Shown here: piece by piece, positions 1,809-36,495 of the stretch
Layout of the letters: the number at the start of each line of letters is the position of its first letter
Position numbering within the stretch: position 1 is the first letter of the stretch
Assembly: GCF_964275005.1 (NCBI RefSeq)
Contig: NC_092702.1
Coordinates: forward strand, 30,914,726 to 30,978,725
From: Diadema setosum
Lineage: Eukaryota; Echinodermata; Echinoidea; Diadematoida; Diadematidae
Direction: 5' to 3'
Length of the DNA stretch: 64,000 nt
Program-made: the position numbers and the translations under genes
The notes under the pieces: model-generated
Told to the model about the DNA's origin: nothing
The model's input: only the letters and a program-made list of their open reading frames with translations
Databases searched by the model: none

Positions 1809-3094
1809 TCATGCGTCGTACGCTTCTTCTTTCACGCAAGGCACGTTGAGGATGATCTTCCTGCGTGGGATAGCGTTAGGTGAGTGGTCGGGGGAAGGTG
1901 AGGACTCTACGGGTGGACAGTCGTCCAGCCAGAAATTAACCAACTTCTCCCTCGGAACTTCTTCCTTAGGAATGACCCGCTCAGTCTCCGAGGCGTGAGA
2001 CTGCGCGAACGACGACGATTCCAGAGCGAACTTGACGCTCTTCTCCTGCTGGTACTTCCTGGAGAGATTGTTCAGTTGCATCACCATGCTGCGTTCCCTG
2101 ACGCTGGAAGAGGGCTGGACAATGAGCTCCAGGTCTGGCTTGCCTGAGTTTCCACTCGTGACAACTGGTGGAGCTGTCTGTGGCTTCAGAAGAGCAATGT
2201 CCTGATCAGCAGCACTTTGCTTTGACTTATGGTTTAGTATGATCAGTCTATCAAAAGTCCGGACACTTCCACTCTGCAGTTCTCGGGGCATCGCATCGGG
2301 TCGTCTGCTTTTGTCCAGTTCTTTGTTGAGGATCTTCATCGTGTCTTGGAAACTCTTCATCATTCTGTGTCGGTTCATGGGTAAAGGTTTGGCGCAGAAC
2401 CGCTTGGGGTTGCCTTCACCCCGCGACACGGGTTTCGACCCTATGGGTGGCATGGTGATGCGCTCCAAATTTGGACTGTCGTGGGCATCCTCATCTTCCG
2501 ACGATGTTAATGACTTTGCTGGACTCGATCTCGGACTAGAATCTCCCCGCTTGGACAAAGCGATTGGTGTGACCGTGAATGGATTCCAAGTCAAGTCGGA
2601 AGACCCAAGTCTCGACATGGCATTGGTGGTTGTTGCCATAGTTGGTACCGATCGTTCCGAAAACAGCTTGCTACTAACCGAACTGCCGTCATTTGGCGGA
2701 GCTGCACAAGACGCATTATCCTTTTCAGTATTGCACCTGGACACAGAGGCTTTCTCATTTTCGCACTTGAGGCTCTGAAAATCTGGACTCAGTCTGTTTA
2801 GATCACCGCTCTTGAATGATACCGTTGAAACGTTCCCGTGAAGTGCCTTGGCCGTCCCTTTGATGGTAAAGACGCTACCCTCATCACGGATGTCTGGCAA
2901 GCTCTGTCCTCTTGCGCTAAGCCGGTTAGACACATGGAGGCGTTGCTTTACTCTCTTTTGACCACCGCCACCACCGCTGCTCCTCGTTGAACTTCGAGAG
3001 GGAGCTCCTTCCTCTCGCGATACCCGTTCCGGTCTCAGCGAGCGCACGAAGATCGGAGGACCGTTTGCACCCCCGAGACCAACCACGCAGAGCT
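1809..3094 (-). CDS. Unknown disordered protein A, terminal coding exon
   Basis: This is an open frame of about 427 residues that matches no family I recognise. On the minus strand a good acceptor (TTTCAATGCAG) puts the exon start at 3094 inside the open frame, so an upstream coding exon is probably missing and the start Met is unknown; the frame runs to a TGA at 1809. Composition is Ser/Arg/Lys/Pro-rich with acidic patches, and I see no signal peptide or membrane segment, so an intracellular location is inferred. Near the C-terminus are KSVKF (2028-2042), a fit to the PP1-docking RVxF pattern, and NFWLDDC (around 1931). A hydrophobic LIILNHKS segment resembles VLVLKHHE in the protein encoded at 9861-10922. 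A paralogue of that gene is likely; function is unknown. Confidence 0.6.
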
Positions 3095-3782
3095 CTGCAT
3101 TGAAACACAAAATTTAGTGCATAAGAACAAAAGTTACTAAAACTTTTCTTGCATTAGTTTCAAATAGTTGGCCACCATGAAATTTATTTACGTGGCGAAT
3201 AGATGGAGGTTCTCTTTTGACAAGCATACTTTTCGTTCAAGTTTCTTTATCAAATGTCCAATTGCATATCAGTATTGAAAAACCATCTCTGGGCTCACTT
3301 TTGTAAACGTGATTTGAATATGGGTTACTATTTTATATTTTGTAGCATTGCAAAGATGACCAACGTACAGTGGCACCATGGTTAAAATGCAATTCGTGTG
3401 TATTATTACGTCTCTGATCAATATTGGTCGATGGCTAGCCTTATAGATTTTATATATGAGTGTGTGCTTAGGTAAGCAGAAAAAGTTTTTACACACATAT
3501 TGAGTCATATATACAACATCGTTTGTACAAGAATGGATGTACAAAAATAGTGTAACATCACTTTTAAACGCCTTCTTCATTTCTCATTAAAAAAAAATCA
3601 TATTCACTCTACAATTCCCGAATTTATGAATTGTTATTTCATATTTTCTCTGAATATGTGGAGAATACGCCACGGGAATGTTTTTTTTTTCTGCGATGTC
3701 TTATGTTGTTCGGAAACTGAGTTGAATAATCTACAGCAAGCAATTTAATTACCTCAAAATATGACTATTGTTTCTCCTTTCA

Positions 3783-4174
3783 TTAAAGGGACTATACAGT
3801 ACTGGTTGAGGTGGGGATTCATGTTTTGAACATCCCTAGGTGAGATAATGAGAAACCTCTTATGAAATATGAAAGAGCATGTAATTTTAAGAAGGATTCA
3901 ATGTTTATTTGATGAAAATTGGTTTTCAAATGGCTGAGATATCCAAAAAAGTGATAATAATAAAAGGCGACAGGCCACGCCTTTTATTAGGATCTCTTTG
4001 TTTCACCTTGTTTTTGGATATCTCAGCCATTTCAAAACCGAATTTCATCAAATAAACTTTTGATACCCCTTAGAATTGCATGCTCTTTGACATCTCATAG
4101 AGTGGTTTCTGAATATCTCGCAAAACGTTAAATGCTAAATTCTCACCTCGACCAGAACTGTACACATCCTTTAA
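3783..4174. repeat. MITE with ~35 bp terminal inverted repeats
   Basis: The left end TTAAAGGGACTATACAGTAC pairs imperfectly with the right end, which reads GTACACATCCTTTAA. The two halves continue as an imperfect palindrome (GGCTGAGATATCC against GGATATCTCAGCC) around an inner hairpin built on AAAGGCG/CGCCTTT near 3965-3995. There is no coding capacity. This is a typical non-autonomous DNA transposon; a TTAA or TA target cannot be decided by eye. Confidence 0.75.
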
Positions 4175-5235
4175 GTCATTAAGTATAAGTGTATGCCATC
4201 TGCATCAACAACGTTTTGCACGGTAGGAAAGCCTTCGGTTGCTCTTCATAGTAAATCAGCTTGCTTTTTGTTTTCATCATTTACGGAGTGGTTTGCACTG
4301 AGTAACATGCAGCGGCATTCTAACAACATAAGATTTCAATACAGCAGAGTTCTTGAAATATTTTTTTCCAACGATGCAAATGTAGAAAGCACGCAACCTG
4401 ATAAATCGAATCCGATACTTAAAAGATTATCAATTACAATCATGTAACTCATGAGAATGTCTTCTCATTCATGGAACACAGCTCTTGGTTTCATACAGCA
4501 ACTGTACTAATGCGATAATCTAATCTAAAGAACGTGTCTCGATCGGGATAGACAATGTACTAATAACTATTACTTCACGCAATTCTAGTATTAGAAGAAA
4601 AAAAAACAAAGCAAAACAAAAGAAGGGACTTGCCGTTTCCTGCGTGTTGTTTCCAGTGCATCTTGGATTAATCAAAAGTAAAAGCGCAATGGAAACAGGT
4701 CAATGTTGAGCTCCATCATGGTCAAACATTGCAGAAGTGAAGGGGCAGTTCGTAACAAGTGATAGGAGGGTGTAGCATGGGTGACTGATACTGGCGTTGC
4801 CGGGGGGTAAACATGATCAATAGACCACGGGTGACCAACTCTATACAATTGCGGTAACAATGTCTTTCGATTGAATGATCAATACAGCGCCCCACGAGTT
4901 CACACTTGTTTTGCGATGGCCAAAATAGTATATATCACTTCTCTGTGGTCACGGTACGCGAGACATATTACACGAAACACCTTCAAAACTTGGTTTGAGG
5001 GTCAAAATAGTAGATATTCACTTCTCTGTGGTCATGGTACGTGAGACATCTCAGACAAAACACCTTCAGATAAGTTCTCTTCACATGTGCGAACACTAGT
5101 CCTCTTTTCTTGAAAAAAAAAAAGACCTTTGTAATATCAATGAACAGTGCTCATCAAAAACCTTTACCAAAGTAAATTTGTTTGTTTGTCATAGAACAAG
5201 ACAAAGGCCCTTATAATACAAAAATATGTTTTGTC

Positions 5236-5546
5236 GGTTAAAGTTCATTAATCCAAAAGCTCGTTAATCCGAAAAGGAGATGCATTTCGTTATATTCCGA
5301 AGGTCATCAATCAGGAAATTAAATGATAAGGTTCTTAATTTCGAAGGCTTGTAATATGCATCTGGGTTTTTTTTCTCTTTCTTTTTTCGTTTTCGAATTA
5401 ACGAGCCTTCGCCACAAGCATAACAAGTATTCGGATTAACGGATATTTTCGGAATAACGAACATCTAGGTAAGAGGATTTTGTGTGTTTCGGAATAACTC
5501 CTTCGGAATAATAAACCTTATTTCATTTCCGGATTAATGAACCTTT
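5236..5546. repeat. Foldback element made of TTCGTTAATCCGAA-type units
   Basis: Short units such as TTCATTAATCC and CTCGTTAATCCGAA on the left are mirrored on the right by TTCGGAATAAC, GGATTAACG and GGATTAATGAACC. The whole stretch can fold back on itself. It is a diverged copy of the larger cluster at 45784-46232. No coding capacity. Confidence 0.65.
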
Positions 5547-6169
5547 AGAGTAAGGAACAAAATCATCTGTGTGTTTGAGTGGTGAAAGACAATAACCAGT
5601 GCACAAGCACAATGTGAATGGAACTCCGTACCTTGCGTGCACATAATCTTCACACTCGTCAGCACGGCTTGTCAAAATGACGAGTTTATCTTCAGTGTGT
5701 GAACGCGGCCTCTCCTTTGTGCCGCGTTGTGTAAGGCTATAGAAACATATGTAAAAGTTGAAAAAGATGTTTGGGGTTTGCGTCTCTTACGACAAGGCCG
5801 CGCGGTCGAACGCTCCTTACCAACCAAAACGTCTCGTAGCCCTTATCAATTATTCACGAATTGGCATCAATAAGAGACTTGGTTGTGGGACAATGCCTTT
5901 ACATGACACGGCGACAGGCGATCCTTTGAGCCAGACGGGGAAGACATTCCGAAGAAACTGTCTGAGAGGGTGCTTGTCAATACACTTTCCATGAAGGATG
6001 ATGATCAAGTATAGTGCCCTTCCCCCCCCCAAAAAAAAAAAAGCCACACAAACTAATGTCCACATTCACTAATTTATTCGCTGATCTGTCCACATTTGTG
6101 TACATATTCACACATTTACTATCTATTCATCAATAATTACCTAATATATCATTATTTCTGTATTCATTC

Positions 6170-6171
6170 AG

Positions 6172-6232
<61 letters not shown>
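6170..6232. repeat. (TATC)n microsatellite
   Basis: About 60 bp of near-perfect TATC tetranucleotide repeat, followed by imperfect copies to about 6260. Confidence 0.95.
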
Positions 6233-6234
<2 letters not shown>

Positions 6235-6259
6235 CATATCCATCTATTCATCTATCTAT

Positions 6260-8180
6260 CTACCTCTTTTGATTTTTTTGATTTATTTTTCTTTTTACAT
6301 ATTCTTATTCGTATTTTGGGGGTATGTATGCATGTATCATGTTGTCTATTTGACATTTTATACATTCCCTTTCATTTGGCTACTAGTTTTGTTTGGTGAT
6401 GAACAAAACATGTGGGAGAAAAGTTTATCACATCATGTTCAAGTTGACTTTAATTTATCAAATAAATTAAGTCAAACAACGGATACAAGGGTGTGGGATT
6501 TGACCCAATGACATTTTTCTCGTTAAATCGGCTGACAAGCCAAATGAAAAGAAAAGGAAATAAAAACTAAACAAAACAAAAAAGTCTTCACATTTTTTGC
6601 TGCCACTTCTCTCCTGAAATCGGCTGACAAGCAAAAAAAAAAAAAACCACCAAAAAAACCAAAAAAACCCAACAAAAACAAACAAACAAACAAACAAAAA
6701 ATCTCAACTATTTGGTAACGTTGGGCTGAGCCTGAGACAGGGTGCTATAGGAACATACGTCTGGACACATGCACATCACATGTTCATTTGGCAGAGGGGG
6801 GGGGGGGACCACCGACAATGACAGTGATGATAATTGTGATTACAATAATATTTAGCTTATAGACGATATTACTTATCGGTGTCATTAGCGTAAGGATTGT
6901 CATTTCCATTCCCATTGTCATTCCCATAGTTATACATGTATGTATATTATACATACAAACTTCAGTTCAAGATGTACTGTGTATTTTTCCCAAATCGTTA
7001 CATTGCATTCGCATCAAAGATAAACGAGTATCGCTCACTTGTATATCTATAATCAGTGGTATCGCTACGTCCCATATCTGCATGCTGCCCTCTCTGGCTT
7101 TGAACAGGATAATTAGTAGTGATGTGAAATTTACATTCAACGTCAGGGTGCGTGGTCAGGTGAGGAGACACCACACCAGAGTGAGCTGCTGCCATCATTA
7201 CCAAGAAGTATCGAGCCAAATCCCGCCCTCTACGTTCAGCGTCATAGTAGGGCTTTAAAAACAATGGTAAGTAAATTATGCGTTTGAATATTTCAAATTA
7301 CGGCCGAGTGCTAAAGAAAAAAGAAAAGTAGCGTGATGTTAATTTTCTGGATTGATTTTAGCGAGTCTAAAAAGTTTGTTTCCTTCAGAACTAAACGACT
7401 AGACTGTCAGAGAATCTACTTGGAAAAAGTAAACCTCGCTCTAAAAAGAGTAGCACAAGTCCCCAAAACGAGATAATTGATGATCACACCAGTACGGCGT
7501 AAATTCTATATAGCAAGATTCAAAGTGAAAAGTGTTATGTGAAGGTCAAATACAATTGGAAGAAGGTTAATTTACCATAACAAAGAATTTTGAATATGAA
7601 TTTACTCTTAATATCAGTATATCGGATAAAAAGACGATCTCTTCGTCGAAAACGGCGCAACGTCTTACACCAATTCTTGGGACAGAAATTGTATTTCCGC
7701 TGCCATAATCATGATAAAAACTGAAAGCAGTTTTACTCTCCTACTACGAGTCGTCTTTTTATCAAGCCTTTGACCATTATAGTTATATCTAATGTGTTAT
7801 ATGTGTTGATGTGTGTATTTTAATGTATGTATATAATCATATATTATATGCAGTGAAAACTTGGAGCAAATTTATTTTTTTATCAATTGTTTCTGGTCAG
7901 TTTTCTCTTTGTCTGTTTTCATATGCATATAATTATACTTTCCTTGTGTCCAAACTTCTGTTTCCTTTTATGATTGTTGTTGTGTTTCATATCCAGTGTT
8001 GAGCATGTGATTACTATGTGTGTAGCCAATACAATATGTTCGTAGAGATGCTTTATCAACACCCTCATGAAAAGACGAATCAGATTCACAAGCTCTTTTC
8101 ATGGCTTTTTGCTTCTCCTGGAACTCAGCGACTGCTAACTGATGCTAGCAGTAGGTCTACTGATCAAAGTTTGTCTTTTA
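6260..8180. other. Intergenic, no gene seen
   Basis: AT-rich DNA with homopolymer runs (A-rich 6630-6700, G run near 6795). A weak inverted pair (TAAAAAGACGA near 7627 and TCGTCTTTTTA near 7750) may mark a short decayed element. Open frames here are short and carry no domain or splice support. Confidence 0.5.
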
Positions 8181-8182
8181 TA

Positions 8183-8465
8183 GGGGTGCACGACACGAGA
8201 CCGACACCCACGAGTCATACAGCTCATATAAGTAATACAACCCATGAGTTATACAGCTCACGAGTCATACAGCCCATTAGTTCGACACTAAGCTAACAAG
8301 GTCCACGGGACCGACACATTAAGCCCCGTGTTGGAACTTTCGAACTCGTGGGCTGTTTTTACCTAAAGTGTCGAACTCATGGGCTGTATGACTCATGGAC
8401 CTGTTTTCAATGTCGAACTCGTGGGCTGTGTAACTCGTGGGTGTTGGTCTCGTGGGATAACCCCC
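8183..8465. repeat. Foldback element, CACGAGTCATACAGC family, copy 1
   Basis: The left arm reads GAGACCGACACCCACGAG and the right arm reads its reverse complement with few changes (CTCGTGGGTGTTGGTCTC). Between them are several copies of an 18 bp unit like CCCATGAGTTATACAGCTC, pointing inward on the left and in reverse on the right. There is no coding capacity. Sister copies are at 45329-45583 and 55421-55676. Confidence 0.8.
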
Positions 8466-9028
8466 ATACACCTCGCATCACTCTGCTATCACGCCAAATT
8501 TGGACCACAGTAAGCTACCTGCTCTTATCCATTCACACACAGGTTACAGCGTGTGACAATCTTTTCCCGAAAACCAACACTATTTTCACGCATTGATATC
8601 CGTGGTTTTTATTTCAAAGTAAACAAAGCTTATATAATATGATTTCACGTAACGAACAATGTGGAACAAGTTCTTATATAATTATTATTCAGCAAAAATC
8701 TGTGATATAAATAGTACAAATGTGTATACGATAAAGAATAAGAGATACGTATGTATAGGAACATAATAGGTGAAAGAAACAGCAATCAAACGAATGAAAT
8801 CGTCTTATTGGCACAAGTAAGGCAGTCATGCAGCATTTTGTCAGTAGGAACCGTAACAGTCAAATTTGTCCGGTCACGTTCAACTGTAGCAGCTCATCAT
8901 GAGTCTTGATTGTACAAAACCCTAACGATACCACTTAAATACCTTTCAGAGATATTCATTTCTGTGAGTGTCCAAGGTCGAGGCGTATCATTATTATACA
9001 CCAGTTGATAGAAAATTATTTGAAAATT

Positions 9029-9397
9029 CCCTTCTGGAAAGAACAGTGTCCCACAGTGTGTTCACAGTTTGTTCACAGTGTGTTTACAGTTTGTTCACAG
9101 TGTGTTCACAGTGTGTTCACAGTGTGTTCACAGTGTGTTCACAGTGTGTTCACATAGTCGACAATGTGAAAACGTTCGAATTTAACAGTGGGAAAATTAT
9201 TTCACAATGTGTTGCGGTTTTCACAGAGTGTTCACATATAGTAATACTTTTTTTTTCACACTGTGAATTGACGGCTCACATTGTGTTCACACTGTTAAAA
9301 TGCTCGTATTTGACAGTGCGAGGAGATTTCACACCGTGTTCACAATATTCACACTGTGTTTCTCACATCGTGGGACACTGTGTTCTTTCTAGCAAGG
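9029..9397. repeat. MITE with TTCACAGTGTG tandem core, diverged copy
   Basis: The ends (TCTGGAAAGAACAGTGT and ACACTGTGTTCTTTCTAG) are inverted repeats. The interior holds about nine tandem GTTCACAGTGT units followed by their inverse. It is homologous to the cleaner copy at 60908-61175. The expanded tandem core makes this copy about 100 bp longer. The open frame across it (His/Cys/Ser/Val repeats) is a repeat artefact. Confidence 0.8.
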
Positions 9398-9860
9398 TTA
9401 AGATATTTCATGAGTTTCCTGAGAATACAAATAAGTACAGTATATCAAATGGTCCACATAAGTACTTGTCGGTGATTGGTCATAATGTAATCACGTGACT
9501 AAGGTAGAGTGGTTCGAAATCGTTATATTGCCTGTATAGTGACGTCACGTCAGGTATAGTCCAAGAATCTGACGGGCAGCCAATTGAGCTAGAATCTAAA
9601 AAAAAAAAATGTATTTCATGTGGACCATAAATATAAAATCCGTGTATATTGCCTTGTCTATCGTTTTGATAAAACACTTGAAAGTCCCTTAAGTGTTCCC
9701 TTATGGACGATATTTCCCCCAGCGCTACGTTCTTCAGGAAAATAGTAATCAACTTGGGGAGAACATTATAGGCCTACTCCCATGGGATGTCAAGTGTTAT
9801 ATTCACACATACATGTATCTGTATAACATTGTTAGATTAGGCTTCCATTGTTCTTATTTT

Positions 9861-10922
9861 CTATTCGATGATATCAAAATGTGTTTGTTGGTTAACTTCC
9901 TCTAACCACTTGACGATCCATTCCGTCTTCTTCTCATCACAGAAGTTCACGTGTTTTGACGTTTTTGACAGGGCTTCGTGGATCATTTTGATTTCATGTT
10001 CATTATCATTGTCATGGATCTTTAAAGTTTCCGACTGTTTGCTTTCTGGCTTGGTATCAGTCTTACTGTTGCTGCTGTCCTTGGAAGCCCGCAGCTTTCT
10101 CGCTCGCTCTAACCACACATCGGGAGTCTCTTTATGGTCGTTGGCTTTGCCTGTTGCTATCTCCGTGTTTGAGACTGCGGGTGGTTTTCGGCGGCTGGAC
10201 GTGGCTGCGGACCGGGATGGGGACGTGCTTTTCTGACTCGATCTGCGACTGTTAAAACCCTTCGCATTCTCGTGATGTTTTAATACAAGAACTTTTTGAT
10301 CCTCGGAATCTTCAGTCAGTGGGGTGTGATCGGCACTCAGGAATCGAACTCGTCGAACTTTACCATCAATGGTGACTTTTTCTCTATGCACCCGGATGAT
10401 TGATGCTGAAGGCCTCACGTCTGATATTGCTGCTACCCCACTCTCATCCGCCGCAGGAGACGGCCACATGTTCACCGTATCGAACGTTCCGTCACTCAGT
10501 CGACGATCTGCTTCGGTAGAGGCAGGCTCAACGCGTGATCTTAAATTCGCCTCCGAAAGACTGTGCCTCGTGATCTTGTCTTTGATCTGACGGCGGTAGC
10601 TGTGGTGATGATGCTGCTGCTCCGGGTCGGAGGGAGTTCGCCGTTTCACAAAGATCGCATTGTCGTTAAGCATGAACATGCGCGAAAAATCGCCATGTGC
10701 AGGAGGAGCGACCTTAGGCACGTTAGGGGAAGGATGCATCTCTTCGATGGATGGAAGTCTGTTTCGACCTCCCACACCCAGTTTTTGATTCATGATGTTC
10801 TTGATGTTATAACCCGTCTTTATGAGCCATGAGTTGAGGCTTTGAGACGGCGTGTTCATCGCCGTAGGCACGTTTCTCTGGCGCGTCAGATGATGTGCAG
10901 GGAATATAGAATCAAGGGTCAT
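9861..10922 (-). CDS. Unknown disordered protein B (353 residues)
   Basis: A 353-residue open frame starts at ATG 10922 and ends at 9861; no known family is recognised. An in-frame TGA lies about 85 bp upstream of the ATG, and a candidate acceptor (ACTCAACCGACAG) lies 8 bp upstream, so the coding region is probably a single exon after a 5' UTR intron. The N-terminal third contains a possible helix (residues about 27-50). Two RVxF-like motifs are visible, RRVRF (10341-10355) and KHVNF (9942-9956). The second is followed by WIVKWLEEV near the C-terminus, parallel to NFWLDDC in protein A and NKWLDDV in protein C. Several RRxS/RxxS sites would suit a basophilic kinase. A PP1-binding regulatory or scaffold protein is an inference only. 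Confidence 0.65.
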   Translation of the reverse strand: MTLDSIFPAHHLTRQRNVPTAMNTPSQSLNSWLIKTGYNIKNIMNQKLGVGGRNRLPSIEEMHPSPNVPKVAPPAHGDFSRMFMLNDNAIFVKRRTPSDPEQQHHHHSYRRQIKDKITRHSLSEANLRSRVEPASTEADRRLSDGTFDTVNMWPSPAADESGVAAISDVRPSASIIRVHREKVTIDGKVRRVRFLSADHTPLTEDSEDQKVLVLKHHENAKGFNSRRSSQKSTSPSRSAATSSRRKPPAVSNTEIATGKANDHKETPDVWLERARKLRASKDSSNSKTDTKPESKQSETLKIHDNDNEHEIKMIHEALSKTSKHVNFCDEKKTEWIVKWLEEVNQQTHFDIIE

Positions 10923-11140
10923 GATCCTTGCTGTCGGTTGAGTCAGTCCGGACCAGGGACGCAGCGGATGTCGAAGTGCAACGTGCCTTTTACGTGCAGT
11001 ACAGGATCACTCGTAGCATTGTGTGTCTTTATGTGAGGCCGTCTGCTTGACCTATAGGTGATTGAAAGAGAGTACAGTCATTTGATTAATCAATTAATTA
11101 ATTTATTCATTTATTTACTTATTTTTCTATTTCTAGCAGA

Positions 11141-17329: not shown

Positions 17330-19475
17330 ATTAGGTGATACGCTATCAGCGTATCACCTATTGTGATTGTCAAAATCTCTCTTTATTAGGTGATACGCTA
17401 TCAGCGTATCACCTATTGTGATTGTCAAAATCTCTCTTTATTAGGTGATACGCTTTCAGCGTATCACCTATTGTGTTTGTCAAAATCTTCCTTTCTTTCT
17501 GGCACATTTTGTGTCGTGAATATCTCAACATTGACATGACGGAATAACATGACATTTTCAGTCAACATGTCTCATGACAACATCTAGCCACAATAAGGTT
17601 TTCATGACAGTAACATATCTATGACGTCATCTAGGCGCCATTTTGTGATTTTCGGACCATGTTACATGATCGATCATAACTTCATAACTAAAGGTCATTT
17701 CTGTATCATTTTCATTGAACATAAAGTTCAGGTCACGCTCTATCTTACTTTTTAATGCTAATTACCTAGGACATCATTACGCGCGCATTAGCGCGCGTCA
17801 AACTTTTAAAAGGCTCAAAACGACTTCCCAATGGGAAATCTCGAAGTTTCAGACAATTTTAAGCGTTCCGCGCGTTCGCGTCCGTCCGCGCATTTCCGCG
17901 CACAGTGCGCGTAAGCAAGATGAAAATGCACATTTTTTGACAGATTTGGATTCCTGATACATTAGGTAACAGTATCCATTGATTTCCGATCAATTTCGAC
18001 CTATAACAAAGGAATGCGCTGGCGTCAAAGTTGAAATTTCGTGTGCGCGTCTATGTGGAAATATAGCGAAAAACATGTCTGTTTATTTCGCCATAGCTCT
18101 TTAAAACGTCAGGTGACCCTATGTTTTTATTGCATATTACAAAAGCATATGAATTGAAAATAACGTTTCAAGTATCAATATTTCCCTAAATACATTATGA
18201 CGTCATCATATCATCATCTGAAATCAAAAAAGTGGAATTAATTTTTTGAGGTACTGTTTCTGACATTCATTTGCTCGTATCTCTGTTGTTTAAGCTCAAT
18301 ATTATCCCAAATTCAGATATGTTGTACTTTGAACATTTGCCTTTTGAGTCCATGTCATGGTTATGAAATTTGATGACGTCATCATACCTTAAATTGTGAT
18401 TAAAGGTAAAGATGCAAAATCGGACCATACTACGTGTTATGTCAATGGGAGGTGATTTTTTTTTTCAAACCATGCATTGACTTGACAACGTTTAAGCACC
18501 TTTATCTCAGCTGATTTTGCTTCATTTCTTCTGAAACTTAAGTATGTTGTAGCTGAGACAATAAGCTTTAGTAATCATGCATTTTATTTTTTGAAATCCT
18601 ATCATCAGGTTGACAATTTTGCAGTTTAAAGCTGAAAATGAGAATGGAATGTGGACAAAACGATTCCCGATTCAGCTTTCACATACATAAGTTTACGTTC
18701 CTCATATTTTCTCGCCGAGACGTATGGCCGAGTGGTTAAAGGCGACGTCTCAGAGACGTGAGGTTGCGGGTTCGAACCCCACAAGATCACGAAACAAAAC
18801 ACTTAGCTATTTTACTTTTTTTCTTCAATTTTGTATTACATATTCGTCCATGTAGAAATCACGTTCGTATAAACGCACCTATACACAGACACAGACACAC
18901 ACCATATCCCTTTTTTTTTGTGTTGGAGACCACATTGCTTCGACTGCTGCACAATTTTGTAGGCTGACTTTGTCAAACCGATCATAGTATGTAATGACGA
19001 CGACGGAGGTGTTGTACTTTGAACAATTGTCTTTCAAGACCATGTCATTGTTTTGTACTTTGATGACGTCATCACACTGAAAATTGTGATTAAAGGCAAG
19101 GTATCAAAACTAGCCGATTATAGGCTTTATGTCTACGGCGCGTATTTTTCCCAAGTTGCCAGAAATGGCATAGCGACATCAGTCGTTACAAGGCCGCATT
19201 TCCGTCTAGCAATGCAATACATGTTCACGCGGCCACGATTGTTGAGTGGGCATTGACTTTTTCCCCCTGTAATATCCATACATTTCTTTTTTGCCTTACC
19301 ATGTCCGGGGATGTCCCGTGGCCGAGTGGTTAGAGAAACGGTTTTGCATGCACGCTCAATATAACTTCAAGGTGCCTATATCACATTCTTTTCTTTGTCG
19401 ATCACAGATGACCGACACCTGATGACCCCAAGCGTATCACCTAACTCGTCAGCGTGACGAGTTTCATATCTCGTT
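17330..19475 (+). mobile_element. Helentron/HINE-like element, copy I
   Basis: The 5' end carries three tandem 55 bp units, each with a perfect 13 bp-arm palindrome (TAGGTGATACGCT, 3 nt, AGCGTATCACCTA) at 17332-17360, 17387-17415 and 17442-17470. The 3' end has one half of that palindrome (AGCGTATCACCTA, 19431-19443), directly followed by a hairpin with AACTCGTCA arms (19443-19463) and a short tail TTCATATCTCGT. A sub-terminal inverted repeat plus 3' hairpin is the known layout of Helentron-derived non-autonomous elements. No Rep/helicase coding sequence was seen. A tRNA-Leu-like segment lies at 18717-18787. Confidence 0.6.
18717..18787 (+). repeat. tRNA-Leu(CAG)-like segment in a repeat
   Basis: There is an A box TGGCCGAGTGG, an anticodon loop reading CTCAGAG (anticodon CAG) on an ACGT/ACGT stem, and a B box GGTTCGAACCC. 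The ends do not pair as an acceptor stem, the variable arm is short, and the same segment recurs at 23181-23254 in matching flanks. It is therefore a tRNA-derived part of a repeat, not a working tRNA gene. Confidence 0.6.
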
Positions 19476-20790
19476 TTTTTTTATTCTTCTTTCTTTCTGG
19501 ACAATTTTGTGTCGTCAATATCTCAAGAATGACATTACGAAATAACATGACATTTTCAGTCAACATGTCTCATGACAAAATCTAGCCACAATAAGGTTTT
19601 CATGACAGTAACATATCTATGACGTCATTTAGGCGCCATTTTGTGATTTTCGGACCTTGTCACATGATCGATCATAGCTTCATAACTACATGTCATTTCT
19701 GTATCATTTTCGGTGGACATGAAGTTCAGGTCACGCTCTATCTTACTTCTTAACGCTAGTTACACAGGTCATCATTACGCGCGCGTAAGCGCGCGTCAAA
19801 ATTTTAAAAGGCTCAAAACGACTTCCCAATGGGAAATCTCGAAGTTTCAGACAATTTTAAGCGTTTCAAACATTTTCTCGCGTGCGCGTCCGTCCGCGCA
19901 ATTTCGCGCGCAGAGCCCGTAAGCAACATGAAAATGCAATTTTTTTTGGCTGATTTGGATTCCTGATACTTTGAGTAACAATATCCATTGATTTCCGATC
20001 GATTTCGACCTATAACAAAGGAATGCACTGGCGTCAAAGTTGAAATTCCGCGTGCGCGTCTTTCTGCAAATATAGTGAAAAAACATGACTTTGTTTATTT
20101 CGCCATAGCTCTTTAAATCGTCCGTTGACCCTATATTTCTATTGCATATTACAAAAGTATATGAATTGTAAATAACATTCCAAGTATCAATATTGCCAGG
20201 AAAACGCGATGACGTCATCATATCGTCATTTTAAATAAAAAAAGTGGAATTGATTTTTTTGAGGTACTGTTTCTGACATTCATTTGCTCGTATCTCTGTT
20301 GTTTAAGCTCAATATTATCCCAAATTCAGATATATTGTACTTTGAACATTTGCCTCTCAAGTCCATATGATGGTTTTGAAATATGATGACGTCATCATAC
20401 TAGAAATTGTGATCAAAGGTAAAGACTCAAAATCAGACAAGTTTACGTGTTATGTCTATGGGAGGTGATTTTTTTTAAACCATGCATTGACTTGACAACG
20501 TTTAAGCACATTTACCTCATCTGATTTTGCTCCATTTCCTCTGAAACATACGTATGTTGTAGCTGAGACAATAAGCTTTAGTAATCATGCATTTTATGTT
20601 TTCAAATCTCCTCATCAGGTTGATAATTTTGTAGTTTAAAACTGAAAATGAGAATGCAATCTGTACAGAACGATTCCCAATTTTTCTTTGCAACTGTATA
20701 TTGATCGAATCCACGCTGCCACTTGTGAGAAGTTGAATAGCGCCATCACATTTCAACACATTCACAATGGTATTTAGATTTAAGTTTCAC
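19476..20790 (+). mobile_element. Helentron/HINE-like element, copy II (3' part replaced)
   Basis: From 19490 to about 20690 the sequence follows 17500-18690 of copy I closely (for example CAACATGTCTCATGAC, GGGAAATCTCGAAGTTTCAG). It lacks the 5' palindromes and loses similarity before the tRNA-like segment. Copies I and II are therefore in direct tandem. Confidence 0.6.
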
Positions 20791-21414
20791 ACTCAATCTT
20801 CAGGACAGCCGTGTGGCATAATCGCTTAGCGCGCTGGGTGTTCATAACGCCTTACCAGAATGTGAGAAGTTCGACTCCCGCAGGACCTTTTTTTCCGTTC
20901 TTTCTTTTTCTCTCCTTTTTTTTTTTTTTTTGGCAATTCAGCTTTACTCCGATGTCATTTATCATATTATTTTATCAAGTGTACCTAACCCGTGAACACG
21001 GCTGCTCTATTTCCCTTGTTTTGTATTGGAGTTTGGAGATTGGGTTTGCTTCATTAATTTTGTCACACTTAATGTTGTAAATTGCCCCTTGTTACAGTGT
21101 CCCGCTTGCCACCTTTCGTTTGCTCTTTCCTTTTCTCTTCATTGGTTATTGTTATACTGTAACAGGATAGGTAGGAACATGTACGTTTAAATAACTTGCA
21201 GGAACGGGAGCTGAATTGATTAACTCTAGGCCAGGTGTATGGCGTCTCGCTCATCTCTTTGAAATTCCAGGTTGTTATTGTTTGACCCAATAACGGAGTT
21301 GTAGACAGGTTTTATGTTGCTATAGAGGTATCTTGTGCCACATGAATGGAAGGCATCACTGTTTAGTAGTAGTAATGAACTTTTTCATGTTGTAAATGGT
21401 ATAAAGATTTAAGA

Positions 21415-21450
<36 letters not shown>
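20785..21450 (+). repeat. tRNA-derived SINE-like unit 1 with (TAAA)n tail
   Basis: The head reads CAGCCGTGTGGCATAATCGC (A-box-like) followed by a B-box-like AGTTCGACTCCCGC. A long body ends in a (AAAT/TAAA)n tail at about 21410-21450. The body matches unit 2 (21715-22330) over several hundred bases, including CTAGGCCAGGTGTATGGCGT. At about 620 bp it is long for a SINE. Confidence 0.5.
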
Positions 21451-21489
<39 letters not shown>

Positions 21490-21651
21490 TTAAAACCTAA
21501 AATGGCATTAAAACGCTTTATCCTGGCGAGGAAAGCGCATGTTTTTGAAACAAGACACCAAACAGGTTAGTCATCGCATTCTTCATCAGCGACCAGGATG
21601 CGATGTGATGTTAGATTAAAAATCCGTTTCTGAAGCAGAACATACACACAA

Positions 21652-21709
<58 letters not shown>

Positions 21710-21714
21710 GATAC

Positions 21715-22330
21715 ATTTCACATCCAATCTTCGGTACAGCCGTGTGGCTTTATAGTCGCTTATCGGGCTGCATGGTCATTATGCACTACCTTAGAAGGAG
21801 ATGTTCGAGACCCGCAGGACGCTATCATTTTTTTCTCTCTCTCTTTCTTTGTTCTTCTTTTGGCAGTTCAGCTTTATTCCTATCGATGCCATTTATCGTA
21901 TTATCTTATCAATTATACTACCCCACGACACACAGTCACTCAAGTTCCTTTTTTTTTTTGTCGGAGGCTGGAGGTTGGATTTGCTTCATTTATCATACGT
22001 ATTGTTTAAATTGCCCTTGGTACAGTGCCCCGCTTGCCACCTTTCCTTTTCTCTTTCCTTTTCTCTACGTTTGTTCCTGTTACACTGTCACAAGACAGGT
22101 CGGAAAATAATTCACATAACTCAACAGGAGCAGGAATGGCAACTGAATGAATTAACTCTAGGCCAGGTGTATGGCGTCTCGCTCATCTCTTTGAAATTCC
22201 AGGATGTTATTGTTTGACGCAATAACGGAGTTGTAGACAGGTTTTATGTTGCTATAGAGGTATTGTATCTTGTGCCACATGAGTAGAAGGCATCACTGTT
22301 TAGTAGTAGTAATGAACTTTTTCATGTCCC
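21715..22330 (+). repeat. tRNA-derived SINE-like unit 2
   Basis: This direct repeat of unit 1 has the same head (CAGCCGTGTGGCTTTATAGT) and an almost identical 3' half. It is preceded by a (TA)n tract (21655-21706). Open frames here are polypyrimidine artefacts. Confidence 0.5.
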
Positions 22331-22829
22331 TCCATGTCAATTATAGTGTGGTTTAAAGGGGTTGTGTGTCTATCTACCAAAGAAAAGGAAAAACTTATTT
22401 TCGTCAGGGCTGTTTCTCTATACGTAGCCGTAGGTAATGAGTGTTGTTGGTATCTGAGCAGTGAAGAACAGAGCGTCAGGCTAAAATCCCCTTTAGTTAT
22501 ACGCGCTAAGCGTTCAATAATCTTTCTTTATGTAGTCAATCCCTGCTAATGGAGTTACAGAATTATGTTATGACACGTTTCACTGAAAGTTTGTAAAGCA
22601 AAGTTTGTGGACAAGGCAAGCAATTGTACATGAATAATACCTACCATTGATTTCAGAGGGAAATTATGGTATGCCTAAATGTAAGGGTATCATTACTTTG
22701 GAATTGCTGAGACAATATGCTTGGCGCGGGGGCTTCCACTTCTAATAACTGATCCCTTTGAAGATGTGTCGGTCACGGGTGATCGTCATGATTCATCTTT
22801 CACGTAGAAGCTTACGTTCCACACTCTTG

Positions 22830-23956
22830 GTTCGAGAAGACTTACCATCATACTTCAAATTGTTATTAAAGGTAAAGACTCAAAATCAGACAAGTTTACG
22901 TGTTATGTCTATGGGAGGTGATTTTTTTTTAATGTGCATTGACTTGACAACGTTTAAGAACCTTTATCTCAGCTGATTTTGCTCCATTTCCTCTGTAACT
23001 TAAGTATGTGGTAACTGAGACAATAAGCTGCAGTAATCATGCATTTTATTCTTTGAAATCTCCTCATCAGTTTGACAATTTTGCAGTTTAAAACTGAAAA
23101 TGAGAATGGAATGTGGACAAAACGATTCCTGATTCATCTTTCACATACATAACTTTACGTTCCTCATATTTTCTCGTCGAGACGTATGGCCGAGTGGTTA
23201 CAGGCGACGTCTCAGAGACGTGAGGTTACACACGTGCGGGTTCGAACCCCACAAGATCACGAAACAAAATACATAGCTATTTTACTTTTTTTTTTCTTCA
23301 ATTTTGTATTACATATTCGTCCATATAGAAATCACATTCGTGTATAAACGCACCTATACACACACACAGACACAGACACACACACACACACACCATATCC
23401 CTCTTTGTGTTGGAGACCATATTGCTTCGACTGCTGCAAAATTTTGCAGGCTGACTTTGTCAAACCGATCATAGTATGTAATGACGACGACGGAGGTGTT
23501 GTACTTTGAACAATTGTCTTTCAAGACCATGTCATTGTTTTGTACTTTGATGACGTCATCACACTGAAAATTGTGATTAAAGGCAAGGTATCAAAACCAG
23601 GCGATTATAGGTTTTATGTTTACGGCACGTATTTTTCCCAAGTTGCCAGAAATGGCATAGCGACATCAGTAGTTACAAGGCCGCATTTCCGTCTAGCAAT
23701 ACATGTTCACGCGGCCGCGTTGGTTGAGTGGGCATTGACTTTTCTCCCTGTAATATCTATACATTTCTTTTTTGCCTTACCATTTCCGTGGATGTCCCGT
23801 GGCCGAGAGGTTAGAGAAACGGTTTTGCATGCACGCTCAATATAACTTCAATGTGCCTATATCACATTCTTTTCTCTGTCGATCACAGGTGACCGACATC
23901 TGATGACCCCAAGCGTATCACCTAACTCGTCAGTCTGACGAGTTTCATATCTCGTA
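22830..23956 (+). mobile_element. Helentron/HINE-like element, copy III (5' truncated)
   Basis: It follows the 3' half of copy I (18390-19475), including the tRNA-Leu-like segment (23181-23254, here with a longer variable arm). It ends with AGCGTATCACCTA and the hairpin AACTCGTCA-GTC-TGACGAGTT at 23924-23944, then TTCATATCTCGTA. The last base is placed at 23956, where the interrupted LINE resumes. Confidence 0.6.
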
Positions 23957-25022
23957 TTATATTCATCCTTAATATTGCCATATTTAAATTACGGTATTCT
24001 CGCGTGGGGAAATACATATAAAACACTTTTAGATAAATTACTTTTATTGCAAAAGAAATCACTCCGTATCATAAGTCATACTGCATTTTTGTCCCATACT
24101 GACCCACTATTTTATGAGCACAAAATATTGAAAAATAATGATTTGTATTTTTTTAATTTAGGACAATTTATGTATAACTATAACAAAAACAACCTTCCAA
24201 ATATATTCGAAACAATGTTTCAAAGAAATCAATCCGTTCACAATTATCCAACAAGGCGATCAAATGACTTCCATTTGCCATTTCTGAGAACTTTGTTGGT
24301 TCAAAACACATTCATCTACGATGGGCCAAAGTATTGGAATTCACTTCACAACAATATTACAACAGCTCAATCTCTGAACTCCTTCAAGAATAAATTAGAA
24401 TTATTCGTATTGAAATCTTACAACATCCAACCGAGTTGGTTTCGTTTTACCATCTTAGTCAAGTCATCATTTCTTTGAATATTAAACAATTATTATGAAC
24501 TTATTTTTTTTTTTACATAAGTCCTCCTTACAATTATGTTCCTGTCAGTGTTCCGCATATATCGATGTGTCTATTCTCTCTTTCTCCTGCATTCTTACCA
24601 ATATAATTATGTATGATTTTTTTTTTGCATTATATTCAATCCAGGTTGTATTTCATCACTTATTTTACATCATGGAATCCAGATTGCTTGCGTCCACGAT
24701 AGCACGTGCTGTATTCCCCCCCCCCTTTTTTCCCCTTTTTTTCTTTCTTTTTCCCTTCCCAATTATTTTGATGTCAGTTGACATCAGTTCGTTTTATTTT
24801 GTTTCATCCTCATCCTTAGTTGACATGTATTATACGCTTTATGTATATATCAACAAAGATAATTGCGGGTTTTTTTTCCATCTGCTTCTCATTTTCATAT
24901 GTACTTTATCAAATCACATTCTGCAATTATTACAAATATCCTGTACATATGCAATGTGTATAATTTCTTTGTTTATTTGATAGAAGTGAAAATAAATTTG
25001 AATCTTGAAGCTTGAATCTTGA
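23957..25022 (+). pseudogene. LINE C-terminal fragment and 3' end (second half of the split copy)
   Basis: An open frame at 23975-24478 gives PYLNYGILAWGNTY, LLLLQKKSLRIIS, NYPTRRSNDFHLP and GPKYWNSL, the usual carboxy-terminal region of CR1/L2/Jockey-type LINEs. The first codons (LYSSLILPYLNYG) continue the frame interrupted at 17329. A pyrimidine-rich 3' UTR follows and ends in a short TTGAATC-type tandem tail near 24995-25022, the normal 3' end for this LINE group. Confidence 0.8.
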
Positions 25023-29600: not shown

Positions 29601-29610
29601 AACGGATATA

Positions 29611-30597
29611 CACTCAGCAAAAAAAAAAGAAAGTAGACACTTTTTCGAGGTCATATTTTTCATAAAAGATTTTCATGAAAATCAATGTTTTATATACCAA
29701 ATTAAAGGTTATTCAATTGGCTATTAAGCTTATAGGGTAATTAGAACGATAACTTTACGCATGAGTGAGCACATTCATTTTTGTCCTCCAAGGCATGAAA
29801 TCAAAAATTGCAAAAATTGCCAAGTTCTCTTTCATTTGCAAATGCCCTTTACGATAACATTGACAACAAACCAGTTTAACACAATGAGAGATATGAATGA
29901 AAGAGGGAAATAGGTTTTTGTTCTCTTTATCTCTTCATAACCTCTAGGAAAAACAAAGTGGGAAACTAAAGGGGAGAAATAAGAATTTTCTGTCTAGTCA
30001 AACTTCAAATGACATAGGGAATAATAAGCATAAAGATGATTAAATGAGCAGAATTTCTTTATTTATTTCTTTTAATTTGGTTATTTAAAATCCATGTGAC
30101 AATTTCAAGACCAAACGTTATTTACAATTTCCTAATTTGAAAAAACCCCTCAAATTTATATAATTTTTGTTAATCATTACTTCTTCTCTTATTTCATTTG
30201 AATTTAGATTTGACATAAAAGATGCTTAATTTTCCTCCATTATTTTTAGCCTTCATTGATCTTTTGGGCTTTAAAGATATCATAGAGATCAAAGGACTAT
30301 TTTGCAACTTAATTCATGTTTCTTTTTGTGTGAAATTTGTTGTTTATTCTTATTGTTCCATGGAAGAGCACATACACATGAACGACAACTTGTTCAGTTT
30401 TGCAATTTTTACTTTTGTGCCCTGGAAAAGAGAAACAATGATGTTCACTCATGCGTAAAGTTTCCCTTTTTGTTGACCTACCAGGTTGATAGCCAATTAA
30501 ATTACCTTAATATGGTATATAATACATAGCTTTCAGCCAAACATTCTATGAGAAATCTAAACTTGAAAAAGCGTTTACTTTCTTTTTTTACTGAGTG
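29611..30597. mobile_element. Long-inverted-repeat DNA element, copy 2 (TA target)
   Basis: The ends CACTCAGCAAAAAAAAAAG and CTTTTTTTACTGAGTG are perfect inverted repeats flanked by TA (29609-29610 and 30598-30599). The element is about 987 bp and again nearly all palindromic; ACGCATGAGTGAGCAC on the left answers GTTCACTCATGCGT on the right. It is the same family as 25264-26072. No transposase frame is present. Confidence 0.85.
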
Positions 30598-30835
30598 TAC
30601 ATAAAACAGTACGTCTTATTGATCGTTTTGTTCGTTAGGTAGCTTGAGTGGATGATTGTGTGAGTTGTGCCGCCAACTAAACTTTGATCAAATGTCTCAA
30701 CGAGACCGATCCCTTAGACTATGGAAATTAAGGTTCGGCCCCTCATTCTAATGATTATCATATTCCACTTTCGGAAGTCCCAACGTTACCAATTTATCTC
30801 CGTTTCTCTTCTGTATGTTCTTTTATCCTGTACAG

Positions 30836-30918
30836 TTAAAGGGGCTGTTGAATTACGATACAAACAACGCTGCTCTTAATACTATGGAAGCTGATATTCG
30901 TGCCAGAGCACAGTTGTA
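30836..30918 (+). promoter_or_regulatory. 5' UTR part of gene C exon with a short upstream ORF
   Basis: The strong acceptor TTCTTTTATCCTGTACAG places the exon start at 30836. An 11-codon upstream ORF starts at the ATG at about 30883 and ends in the TAA that overlaps the start region of the main frame. Such an ORF could lower translation of gene C; this is inference. Confidence 0.5.
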
Positions 30919-31785
30919 ATGGAAGGTGAGAACTTGTCATTAGTTCGACAGAAGAAGAGAAGAGAAGACAAGAAGAGTGTGTCATTTTGTCTGCCCCCAG
31001 AGAAAAGTCCAGCCGCCAACAATAAAGGAAGGATTCCTGATCGCTTCCTACAACGCGTCAAACACAACTCGTCAACGCGGTTCTCATATGGACAGCCGTG
31101 GAGAAGGCGAACCGCATCCGCGCAAGCTGCCCGGTTCCTACCACCTGTTTCCATCACAGGGCAGTCAGTCCAGAGCAGTGCGTTCCGTCCCCCACTGAGG
31201 CGATCCTATTCCGCTCCTGTCGGCTTGACGATCAGCGACGCTCCTTCGCCGCATCGCCGACATTCGTATTCATCGGTGGTTAATCAAAGAATGGTGAGAA
31301 AAGCGGAGAAGGACTTCAACAGGGTCGCGGCAAAAGTCAGCGACTTCTGTCGACGGGTAGAACACCAGACACACACCGAATCATCACACAATAATTCAAC
31401 TCAATTCCAGTCTTCGCCTGAGGAATATAAGCAAATGGAGGGCATAACACATCGTGGACGCAGATACAGAACACAGCTCAATCAAGGCGCCAAGCCAGCC
31501 GAAGAGCAGAGCGAACTGAAAGCTGTAGGACTCAAACTAAGGCTACATCGTTCCGATCATGAGCCCGAAGGTAATAGTAGCCATGGTAACCACAAATGCG
31601 AGAACATCCAGACGGCCGAACCAGCAGAAGATGATGACGAAAACCAGTCGGAGCTGACTGAACGCATCAACAAATGGCTTGATGACGTCAGCACGTCTCT
31701 TGATGAACTGAGTCTTACTGATGACAAAAGTGATGTATCCACTAGCATCACTGTTATTCCGTTGACGAGAGACAGAGTAGCTTAA
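30919..31785 (+). CDS. Unknown disordered protein C (288 residues)
   Basis: A single open frame runs from ATG 30919 to TAA 31785, with a splice acceptor 83 bp upstream; the family is not recognised. The N-terminus is highly basic and contains KKSVSF (30970-30987), a fit to the RVxF PP1-docking pattern. The middle is rich in Arg/Ser/Pro with repeated RRS/RRHS/RRTAS sites. A likely helix spans residues about 120-150, and the C-terminal third is acidic with LTERINKWLDDVSTS near residues 249-263. The K-W-L-D-D-V motif parallels proteins A and B, but the RVxF-like motif is at the N-terminus here. I see no signal peptide or membrane helix. GTGAGA at 30926 could act as a cryptic donor. Confidence 0.65.
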   Translation: MEGENLSLVRQKKRREDKKSVSFCLPPEKSPAANNKGRIPDRFLQRVKHNSSTRFSYGQPWRRRTASAQAARFLPPVSITGQSVQSSAFRPPLRRSYSAPVGLTISDAPSPHRRHSYSSVVNQRMVRKAEKDFNRVAAKVSDFCRRVEHQTHTESSHNNSTQFQSSPEEYKQMEGITHRGRRYRTQLNQGAKPAEEQSELKAVGLKLRLHRSDHEPEGNSSHGNHKCENIQTAEPAEDDDENQSELTERINKWLDDVSTSLDELSLTDDKSDVSTSITVIPLTRDRVA

Positions 31786-34199: not shown

Positions 34200-34372
34200 G
34201 TAATCCCAGTGATCGAGACTGTCTTTTGTACAGTCCATGCAGAAAGGAATCAGGACAAATCAGTCTAGAAATAGGACTGATATTGTCACATCAATTGTTC
34301 GAGAGCTCGCAAGGGTACAGTGATCTGCCCATCGTCTTCACCTCGACTCTCTCTTCCCCGGACTCTATTGCG
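34200..34372 (+). other. Candidate 5' UTR exon of gene D
   Basis: A donor (TATTGCG then GTAAGGTC) at 34372/34373 could splice to the very strong polypyrimidine acceptor at 35374, giving a 1.0 kb intron. The exon start is unknown. Confidence 0.35.
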
Positions 34373-35484
34373 GTAAGGTCTTACTGCCGATTAAGCAGGC
34401 TATTTTATCTTGAGGTTTTGCTTCTATATTTATAGGAACGATTGTCTTTCTTGATAATTCACTGGAACGGGCCAAATGATTGCATCATGTCGTATATCAA
34501 GTATGATAATTAACATCATTTCTGAAAATCCAATCATAGATATTTCATTGTATACTGTTTCATACTTGTCCCTTCCCTTTGTTTTATATCATACTTCAGT
34601 GTTTATCTCGTTGCAAAGCCTGTTAAATTGTTACGAACATAGTTATGTAACATTCCCACGTTTATGAGTAAACATTTGACTGAACATGCAATATACTACT
34701 AGTATTATCCACTGTAGATGTGGTCGTTATTAAACAGTGGAAGTTTCAAAAAGAAAGAAATGATTGTTACAGGTTGAAAGAGATCCCTATATACGAGGTC
34801 ATCATTTATCTTCGCAATATTTGGTCAGGATAGACACAGGAAAGTACAAAGATTAAAATCATGCAATACTAGTACTTCAGATTGCTAGTCAAAAATTCAT
34901 AGGGATAAAAGATTAAACGCCTAAATTACACAGGAGCAAATAGGATGGAAATAATGCTGCCGAAACTTGAACTGGTGCAAGACGAATCATCGACCATGTT
35001 GCAGTGTCATGTTTATCACGGTTCAAGAGCGTGGTTTCTTTCAAGGCGCCAAACTTCAATAAACGTAGCAACAATAAATATTTGATAAATTTATTATTAC
35101 CTCAACACTTACAGAAATTGACATGAAAATATAAATCTTAACTTATGACATTTTTTTTTCATTTTTAACTTTATCATATAAAGTGTAATGTTACAGTAAG
35201 TATAGGTTCCCCACTTACTGTTGTACGCGTATTCTTAGTAATATTTCACACTGAAGAACAGGGCAGAAAGACACAAAATCATTAAAATCAATTAATCAAA
35301 TTTACGTAATAAACTTCTAACCTCGTTTTCTCTGTCTCTCTGTCTCTCTCTCTGTCTCTCTCTCTTTCCTCCAGGTTACTGTTGTGTTGTTGTTGTTTTA
35401 ACTCTGGAAGATCTTAGGATCTTAGGAAGGTACCTCAATCATTCAACGCTTCGGCATGGTGTGTGGTTGCTCTTGAAAATAGCA

Positions 35485-36495
35485 ATGTGTACGATATACG
35501 AGGTTTTCAAACAGGTCTACACCCCTACCAACGACCGTCTCTGCGGGGATCCTGTACCCAAGTTAGATCTGGCCGACTGGCAAAGTGTTTCTCAGTCACC
35601 CAGCGACACACCACTTGACGTCGACGAATTCGACGATGATGAATCATGCCCTTCCCCTCCTCGGGTTGTCTCAGAAGAGCCTCCCTGTCGTAGAGGCAGC
35701 AAAAATAACGAGTCCGCCCTTCCACGTGTAGACGATGCCTTGGTAGATAATGATTTGGGATCAGAACTTTCAGTCGACTCCCCATTGGCAAAGGTCGAGC
35801 TCGAAAACCTTTGTCCCAGTCGCAACTGCAGCGCAAATATTAGACGGACTTTTTCGGCGTCCACATGGCCAAGCAGCAAACCTTTTGACAAACACATGTT
35901 TGAAATCAGACGAGCCATAGGTCGTAGAACCTTGTCAAATGGAATTGGATTTAACTTGCCCGCCAGTCAGAGTAAAATATCCATCCAAACTCACTTCAGA
36001 CCAGAAATGTATGGCTTGTACACATCTCAATTCCGAATGGAGCATGATCTTTGGAAACAGAGTCGAGGTGGGAAATCTCCACGATATTTGGTTCAGGTAC
36101 CGAAGCTCCCACCTCCTGCTTCTACGCGGTTCATCCCAGATATTAACCACAATCCTCCCCAACAATTCGGAATCGGTGATAAAACTTTGCGCGCCAAGTC
36201 GGCTTTCTCCACTGCCGATATTGACGGCGGTTTCGTGACTTTGCCCTCGGAAGGCGTACCGCAGCCTCGACTTCGACGCCAGACGCTGATGTCGTCTTCG
36301 AAAAGTGCATCGATAATCGACCTCCAGAAAAAAGCCATAGCGTTGTTCGAGAACAATTCGAAACAGACGGTGATTAATCTGTTCCGGAAGACTCAGAGTA
36401 GATGGCAAAGGGGAGCTGCAGATGATAACTTTGAGAGTAGAGATAGGAACAAAAGAAACAGAAGCACGAGTAAACGTGTAAGCATAGCTTGGTAA
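35485..36495 (+). CDS. Unknown protein D (336 residues), possibly continuing in another exon
   Basis: The open frame starts at ATG 35485 and ends at TAA 36493-36495; the family is not recognised. The acceptor CTCTCTTTCCTCCAG sets the exon start at 35375, and a 6-codon upstream ORF precedes the main ATG. The N-terminal third is acidic (DVDEFDDDES); the rest is basic and Ser-rich with IRRTFSAS, GRRTLSNG and LRRQTL phosphosite-like motifs and a central LPPPASTRFIPDI segment. A helix is likely at residues about 280-305. The last residues are KRVSIAW, an RVxF-like end lacking Phe. The sequence CTTG then GTAAGG at 36491 is a usable donor, so the true C-terminus may lie in a later exon. Confidence 0.55.
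   Translation: MCTIYEVFKQVYTPTNDRLCGDPVPKLDLADWQSVSQSPSDTPLDVDEFDDDESCPSPPRVVSEEPPCRRGSKNNESALPRVDDALVDNDLGSELSVDSPLAKVELENLCPSRNCSANIRRTFSASTWPSSKPFDKHMFEIRRAIGRRTLSNGIGFNLPASQSKISIQTHFRPEMYGLYTSQFRMEHDLWKQSRGGKSPRYLVQVPKLPPPASTRFIPDINHNPPQQFGIGDKTLRAKSAFSTADIDGGFVTLPSEGVPQPRLRRQTLMSSSKSASIIDLQKKAIALFENNSKQTVINLFRKTQSRWQRGAADDNFESRDRNKRNRSTSKRVSIAW

Follow-up and report, generated by a model that had tools for sequence, protein, structure and literature searches.

A C-terminal WL motif in neighbouring disordered orphan proteins of the sea urchin Diadema setosum

Do neighbouring frames that match no known family, and that have been linked by short motifs, belong to one gene family? This question is raised by a 64,000-nucleotide stretch of the genome of the sea urchin Diadema setosum (contig NC_092702.1, positions 30,914,726 to 30,978,725; G000:C18:30914726-30978725), hereafter the window, in which four long open reading frames (ORFs), A to D, lie close together. 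The original prediction described them as mostly single-exon tandem paralogues encoding disordered proteins that share RVxF-like and WL[DE][DE] motifs and may dock protein phosphatase 1 (PP1). We examined the window and 100 kb on each side of it (264 kb in total; negative positions lie left of the window), within a genome of 912,680,840 bases in 102 contigs. Bindin passes the Pfam cut-off in this genome with two matches, in keeping with a sea urchin. The WL motif found near the C-terminus of A, B and C exceeds chance expectation, within the limits of its post hoc choice. RVxF-like strings exceed chance weakly, and a third segment thought to link A and B does not.

Long open frames and their clustering

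The four frames are present as described. Frame A (1809..3092, minus strand; open frame 1809-3113) encodes 427 amino acids (aa) counted from an acceptor at about 3094, and frame B (9861..10922, minus strand; open frame 9861-11006) encodes 353 aa from its first ATG. On the plus strand, C (30919..31785; open frame 30895-31785) encodes 288 aa from its ATG, and D (35485..36495; open frame 35296-36495), a separate disordered orphan frame that ends in KRVSIAW, encodes 336 aa. All four are islands of high guanine-plus-cytosine (GC) content, which is 0.53, 0.49, 0.50 and 0.48 in A, B, C and D, respectively, versus 0.35-0.37 in the adjoining DNA. All four are also longer than the longest frames obtained in 300 second-order Markov simulations per frame (252, 220, 192 and 328 aa, respectively), D narrowly so. 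Disorder-promoting residues account for 0.62-0.67 of the proteins, B and C included. On their GC content and their lengths beyond simulation, A-D are taken as coding frames.

Six-frame translation of the 264 kb yielded 1247 ORFs of at least 60 aa, 13 of which reach at least 200 aa. Length, not motif content, picked out a fifth frame of this kind, frame E (-4907 to -3564, plus strand; L011:5093-6436), a long disordered orphan frame of 447 aa from its ATG within an open frame of 467 aa. Its GC content is 0.50 versus 0.36 around it, its disorder-promoting fraction is 0.68, and the longest simulated frame has 246 aa. The remaining eight long frames are a TIG-domain exon, a reverse transcriptase and six frames judged by eye, which are mostly transposon- or repeat-like, one resembling a membrane protein. 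The local clustering noted earlier was upheld: with E added, five long disordered frames fall within 41.4 kb of the 264 kb, and the scan estimate of 0.003 for this arrangement, obtained under uniform placement, is rough because the frame class was defined afterwards.

The statement that A-D match no known family was also sustained. None of the five proteins (0/5) has a Pfam match above the curated cut-off. PDB sequence searches with A-D returned nothing convincing, the best hit being unrelated (E value 0.11), and frame E gave no PDB match. Genome searches, in which one to five candidates were scored per query, were run at E values of up to 0.001 for B and C and up to 10 for A, D and E. B, C and D each retrieved themselves alone. 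Frame A retrieved itself and one chance match on contig C1 (L024; E value 9.25), and frame E itself and one chance match on contig C19 (L026; E value 1.58). Both were rejected as relatives: the C1 frame has two stops and overlaps, in a different frame, a by-eye exon of another gene, and the C19 frame has a stop and lies in DNA that appears non-coding by eye. Within the reach of these searches, which returned only self-matches and chance matches, each of A-E is thus single-copy.

The C-terminal WL motif and the kinship of the frames

The WL motif reads VNFWLDDC in A (1917..1940, minus strand; residues 385-392 of 427), where it overlaps the RVxF-like string KLVNF, IVKWLEEV in B (9894..9917, minus strand; residues 336-343 of 353) and INKWLDDV in C (31666..31689, plus strand; residues 250-257 of 288). 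When A, B and C were compared without naming any motif, the best shared window at widths 7, 8 and 10 was VNFWLDD(C)/IVKWLEE(V)/INKWLDD(V). Its score was equalled at these widths by 0, 1 and 0 of 60 local shuffles and by 2, 0 and 0 of 600 shuffles, respectively. At width 6 the best score of any element was equalled by 11 of 600 shuffles, and segments other than the WL motif come first at widths 15 and 25 (4/60 and 7/60). An alternative triple score was equalled in 3/25 shuffles at each of widths 6 and 12 and in 0/25 at width 8. The pattern WL[DE][DE] occurred in at least three of A-D in 0 of 20,000 shuffles. Throughout, shuffle tests preserve composition, not evolution.

The motif is also rare. 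Among the 1247 ORFs of the region, WL[DE][DE] is found in A, B and C only. A looser core, Phi-x-x-W-L-x-x-Phi, is present in nine: A, B, C, E and five ORFs of 66 to 161 aa. It is absent in D; in A, B, C and E it lies 91, 96, 88 and 85% of the way along the protein, respectively. In E the core reads CRLWLRGL, lacks the acidic pair and has a shuffle chance of 0.0065-0.0084, a figure tempered by the fact that E was already known when the core was defined. In the 913 Mb genome, the DNA pattern for [I/V]xKWL[DE][DE]V has five sites, and a reversed-pattern control has four. The five are B, C, an exon that is spectrin-repeat-like by eye, and two short low-GC frames that appear non-coding by eye. Because B and C supplied the pattern, finding them tests nothing; what counts is the low background. 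Two other identities for the WL motif were rejected. Neither the LxxIxE motif that binds PP2A-B56 nor the LC3-interacting WxxL motif fits A, B or C; LRGLRE of frame E resembles LxxIxE.

These observations suggest that A, B and C, perhaps with E, are real, apparently single-copy genes for disordered proteins, which would have arisen by old local duplications and then diverged so far that only Phi-x-x-W-L-x-x-Phi near the C-terminus, in an acidic form in A, B and C, can still be made out. We hold this view tentatively. Membership of one family is the single likeliest reading, and unproven. D is probably an unrelated neighbour: it has no WL[DE][DE], and KRVSIAW is not an RVxF match, so that its earlier inclusion among the motif-sharing members fails. 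The claim of tandem paralogy is accordingly kept in part: the C-terminal WL[DE][DE] of A, B and C, which ranks first among what they share at widths 7, 8 and 10, speaks for it, whereas D and general similarity do not.

Similarity over whole proteins was assessed in several ways. In an all-against-all BLASTP of the four sequences A-D, the A/B pair is marginal (E value 0.033-0.039; 0.002-0.0066 with phmmer) and the other pairs are weaker, the best being B/C (0.24), followed by C/D (0.49). Full-length Smith-Waterman scores of the six A-D pairs, compared with 1000 shuffles, were equalled in 0 cases for A/B and 6 for B/C, and A/C, A/D, B/D and C/D are not clearly above shuffles. With 4000 shuffles, A/B was equalled in 0 global and 5 local tests (20-residue windows), and B/C in 36 and 146. 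Tails aligned across the WL motif gave p values of 0.019-0.029 for B/C. The C/E tails gave 0.039 and, over the last 80 residues, 0/1000, via acidic runs; full-length C/E scores, equalled by 635 and 618 of 4000 shuffles, are not significant. Outside the short motif, A/B alone among the six A-D pairs stands clearly above shuffles, and the significant similarity expected of a tandem family was not found. None of A-E retrieved another in the genome searches at the thresholds and candidate numbers given above. A shared duplication at the DNA level was considered and rejected, as every pair listed by self-BLAST of the window (E values of up to 1e-5) lies outside the four frames.

Several of these results weigh against common descent. 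No pair shows convincing full-length homology, and in the genome searches at the permissive threshold A and E brought up none of A, B, C and E but themselves. The A/B alignment joins residues 64-214 of A with 165-313 of B, off-register to the motifs, and 250 of 2000 shuffles equal the score of its head taken by itself. The tails of A/B (p 0.81-0.83) and A/C (p 0.09-0.37) are not significantly similar. The WL motif was selected post hoc, as were the trio A/B/C and the loose core, and several windows and widths were tried. When D and E are added, the best score is equalled by 33, 6, 4 and 2 of 200 shuffles at widths 6, 7, 8 and 10, respectively; the WL motif leads at widths 7 and 8, an acidic run leads at width 10, and the width-6 figure is for the best score of any element. 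Many rows of the sets of four and five proteins are led by segments that are mostly acidic or mixed, several at 0/60, and under the alternative triple score 0/25 is also reached at width 6 by a proline segment shared by A, B and D. Such scores therefore arise elsewhere too.

The same results make it quite plausible that A-E are independent, fast-evolving genes for disordered proteins that happen to lie side by side, their WL[DE][DE] and RVxF-like strings being due to chance or convergence. Chance motifs in unrelated orphans are a serious rival to common descent. The marginal, off-register similarity of A and B fits this explanation, as do the differing strands, the varying position and spacing of the RVxF-like strings, the lack of any of the motifs in D and the drop of shuffle support to 0.02-0.17 at widths 6-8 with five proteins. 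It also gains from the failure of the segment LIILNHK/VLVLKHH, previously proposed to link A and B. The score of this pair, 17, is reached by 94 of 146,087 A/B pairs of 7-mers, the shuffled mean is 74, and at least one such pair occurs in 100 of 100 shuffles, which places the segment at chance level. What speaks against unrelated orphans is the WL motif itself, which is rare in both region and genome, is repeatedly C-terminal, and is found in three (strict form) or four (loose form) of the five long frames.

A further explanation, compatible with the others and on balance unlikely, is that some frames, chiefly A, are long last exons rather than whole genes, and that other exons may carry recognisable domains. 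The first in-frame Met of A is residue 152 of 427 (minus-strand base 2639), and A starts at an acceptor-like site. As no in-frame ATG precedes residue 152, A probably represents either the final coding exon of a gene or a shorter protein. The description of the frames as mostly single-exon is thus unproven for A; B, C and D have an ATG of their own. B, C, D and E, too, are preceded by acceptor-like sites, and a strong acceptor had been reported for all of A-D. Judged by a home-made score against 10,000 random 150-nucleotide stretches, this is clearly so for D alone, whose score is reached by a fraction of 0.001, but not for C (0.070), B (0.096) or A (0.382); the fraction for E is 0.155. Against the exon explanation, B, C, D and E possess their own ATG 28-129 bases downstream of the acceptor-like site, and a search for a first exon of A in 3113-9840 yielded seven candidates, none of them compelling.

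RVxF-like strings and protein phosphatase 1

The RVxF-like strings named in the original prediction are present, and their number is sensitive to the consensus. Two consensus forms were used for counting: a loose one, [KR].?[VI][^P][FW], and a strict one that demands two basic residues. A carries KSVKF (2028..2042, minus strand) in addition to KLVNF, B carries KHVNF (9942..9956, minus strand) and RRVRF (10341..10355, minus strand), and C carries KSVSF near its N-terminus (30973..30987, plus strand). Frame E carries KIHW near its N-terminus and its WL core, CRLWLRGL, near its C-terminus. Loose matches number 2, 2, 1, 0 and 1 in A, B, C, D and E, respectively. The six matches compare with 1.70 expected by shuffling (P 0.007), or with 1.38 when the fourth position is stricter (P 0.002). 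RRVRF is the sole strict match among the five proteins, versus 0.12 expected (P 0.11), so that there is no clear excess under this form.

If A, B, C and E form one family, each protein could act as a flexible adaptor, the disordered body serving as an arm with docking strings and phosphosites. The C-terminal motif would form a short amphipathic helix, with I/V/C at -3, W-L, and V/C/L at +4 from W; the genome match in the spectrin-like exon, a helical fold, fits such a helical form. The helix of each member would bind one common folded partner, and the RVxF-like strings of A, B, C and possibly E would recruit PP1 near that partner. We regard this complete picture, in which A, B, C and E would be an undescribed, extremely fast-diverging family of disordered adaptors that target PP1, with a Phi-x-x-W-L-x-x-Phi helix, acidic in three, as their sole conserved feature for a common partner and RVxF strings for PP1, as very doubtful.

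Docking of PP1, as proposed earlier, gained no firm support, the evidence for it consisting of the loose RVxF strings. RVxF is named as the commonest PP1 docking motif in PMC8786283, and PP1 partners with a longer RVxF-PhiPhi-R-W string appear in PMC12185105. In Leishmania PNUTS, PMC10731240 places RVCW at 96-99, PhiPhi at 114-115 and the aromatic residue at F118. By eye, KHVNF of B resembles the RVxF-PhiPhi-aromatic part of such a string, as IV stands at +9/+10 and W at +12 from its F, with no R element. In human PNUTS, PhiPhi is found at about +9/+10. A and C have no auxiliary PhiPhi or aromatic elements at suitable spacing, as judged by eye. PP1 docking may be entertained as a possible hypothesis, for which B is the best candidate because of the IV and W downstream of KHVNF and the lack of the longer string in A and C.

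That the proteins are PP1 regulators proper, that is, RVxF-plus-auxiliary-motif subunits in which KHVNF...IV-K-W of B would be an extended docking string and the WL motif would take part in PP1 binding, is compatible with common descent and would account for the excess of loose RVxF matches and for the spacing in B, which may be compared with the account of Leishmania PNUTS (PMC10731240), but it is improbable, since the WL motif overlaps KLVNF in A and lies 30 residues after KSVKF, the RVxF-like string and the WL motif of C are at residues 19 and 250, strict RVxF occurs once, at least one loose match appears in 22-38% of shuffled A-D, such strings being common in basic disordered sequence, and a phmmer search of the B tail against the PDB gave a glucagon derivative only (E value 0.93).

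Should A, B, C and perhaps E be one family, they would be a case of tandem duplicates in which just one short linear motif is retained while everything else diverges, and would provide a testable new docking motif and possibly a new set of PP1 adaptors in sea urchins. If they are not, the locus is a warning that short motifs in disordered orphans readily suggest kinship.

Neighbouring features and known systems

A repeat of about 1 kb at 29606-30602, which ends about 300 bases before C, is its own inverted repeat (about 67% identity), has relatives at 25.2-26.1 kb and has the look of a hairpin transposable element. The stretch 17486-23958 holds repeated blocks of about 1.1-1.2 kb with 89-91% identity. 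Adjoining the cluster, at 39820-42453 and 55995-56438 (both minus strand), are two exons above the cut-off, one with a PAN domain and one with a C-type lectin, and a weak lectin-like match below it. A stop-free frame of 565 aa at 53237-54934 (plus strand) matches reverse transcriptase (RVT_1, E value 6.8e-31). The frames at 48347-48727 (minus strand), which has no Pfam match, and 73502-73903 (minus strand, past the right end of the window) are very similar by eye, have the segment NNDATWRTDEGYLTDKTTLPVTEIRF in common and may be a recent local duplicate. A frame of 412 aa with four TIG/IPT stretches (L002:3329-4564, minus strand), some 95 kb to the left of the window, is probably part of a larger gene of cell-surface type.

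Within the papers searched, the coverage of which is limited, none on this gene cluster was found; A-E can be compared with three known systems. RVxF-type PP1-interacting proteins (strings of Phactr, neurabin/spinophilin, PNUTS and PPP1R15) likewise have disordered stretches with RVxF-like strings, and B is also like them in the hydrophobic and aromatic residues downstream of KHVNF. In contrast, A-E have no Pfam or PDB sequence match to such a protein and, by eye, no full RVxF-PhiPhi-R-W string, and docking is putative.

Lineage-restricted orphan genes resemble A-E in having no Pfam or convincing PDB relative and in being single-copy and disordered; A-E are known here from one genome. To our knowledge, a C-terminal motif repeated in neighbouring genes is less usual among orphan genes. 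The proteins of the SpTransformer (Sp185/333) family of sea urchins are disordered. A-E differ from this family in being single-copy and barely alike, and are likened to it by description, not by sequence; the two are alike in their tight clustering and few exons.

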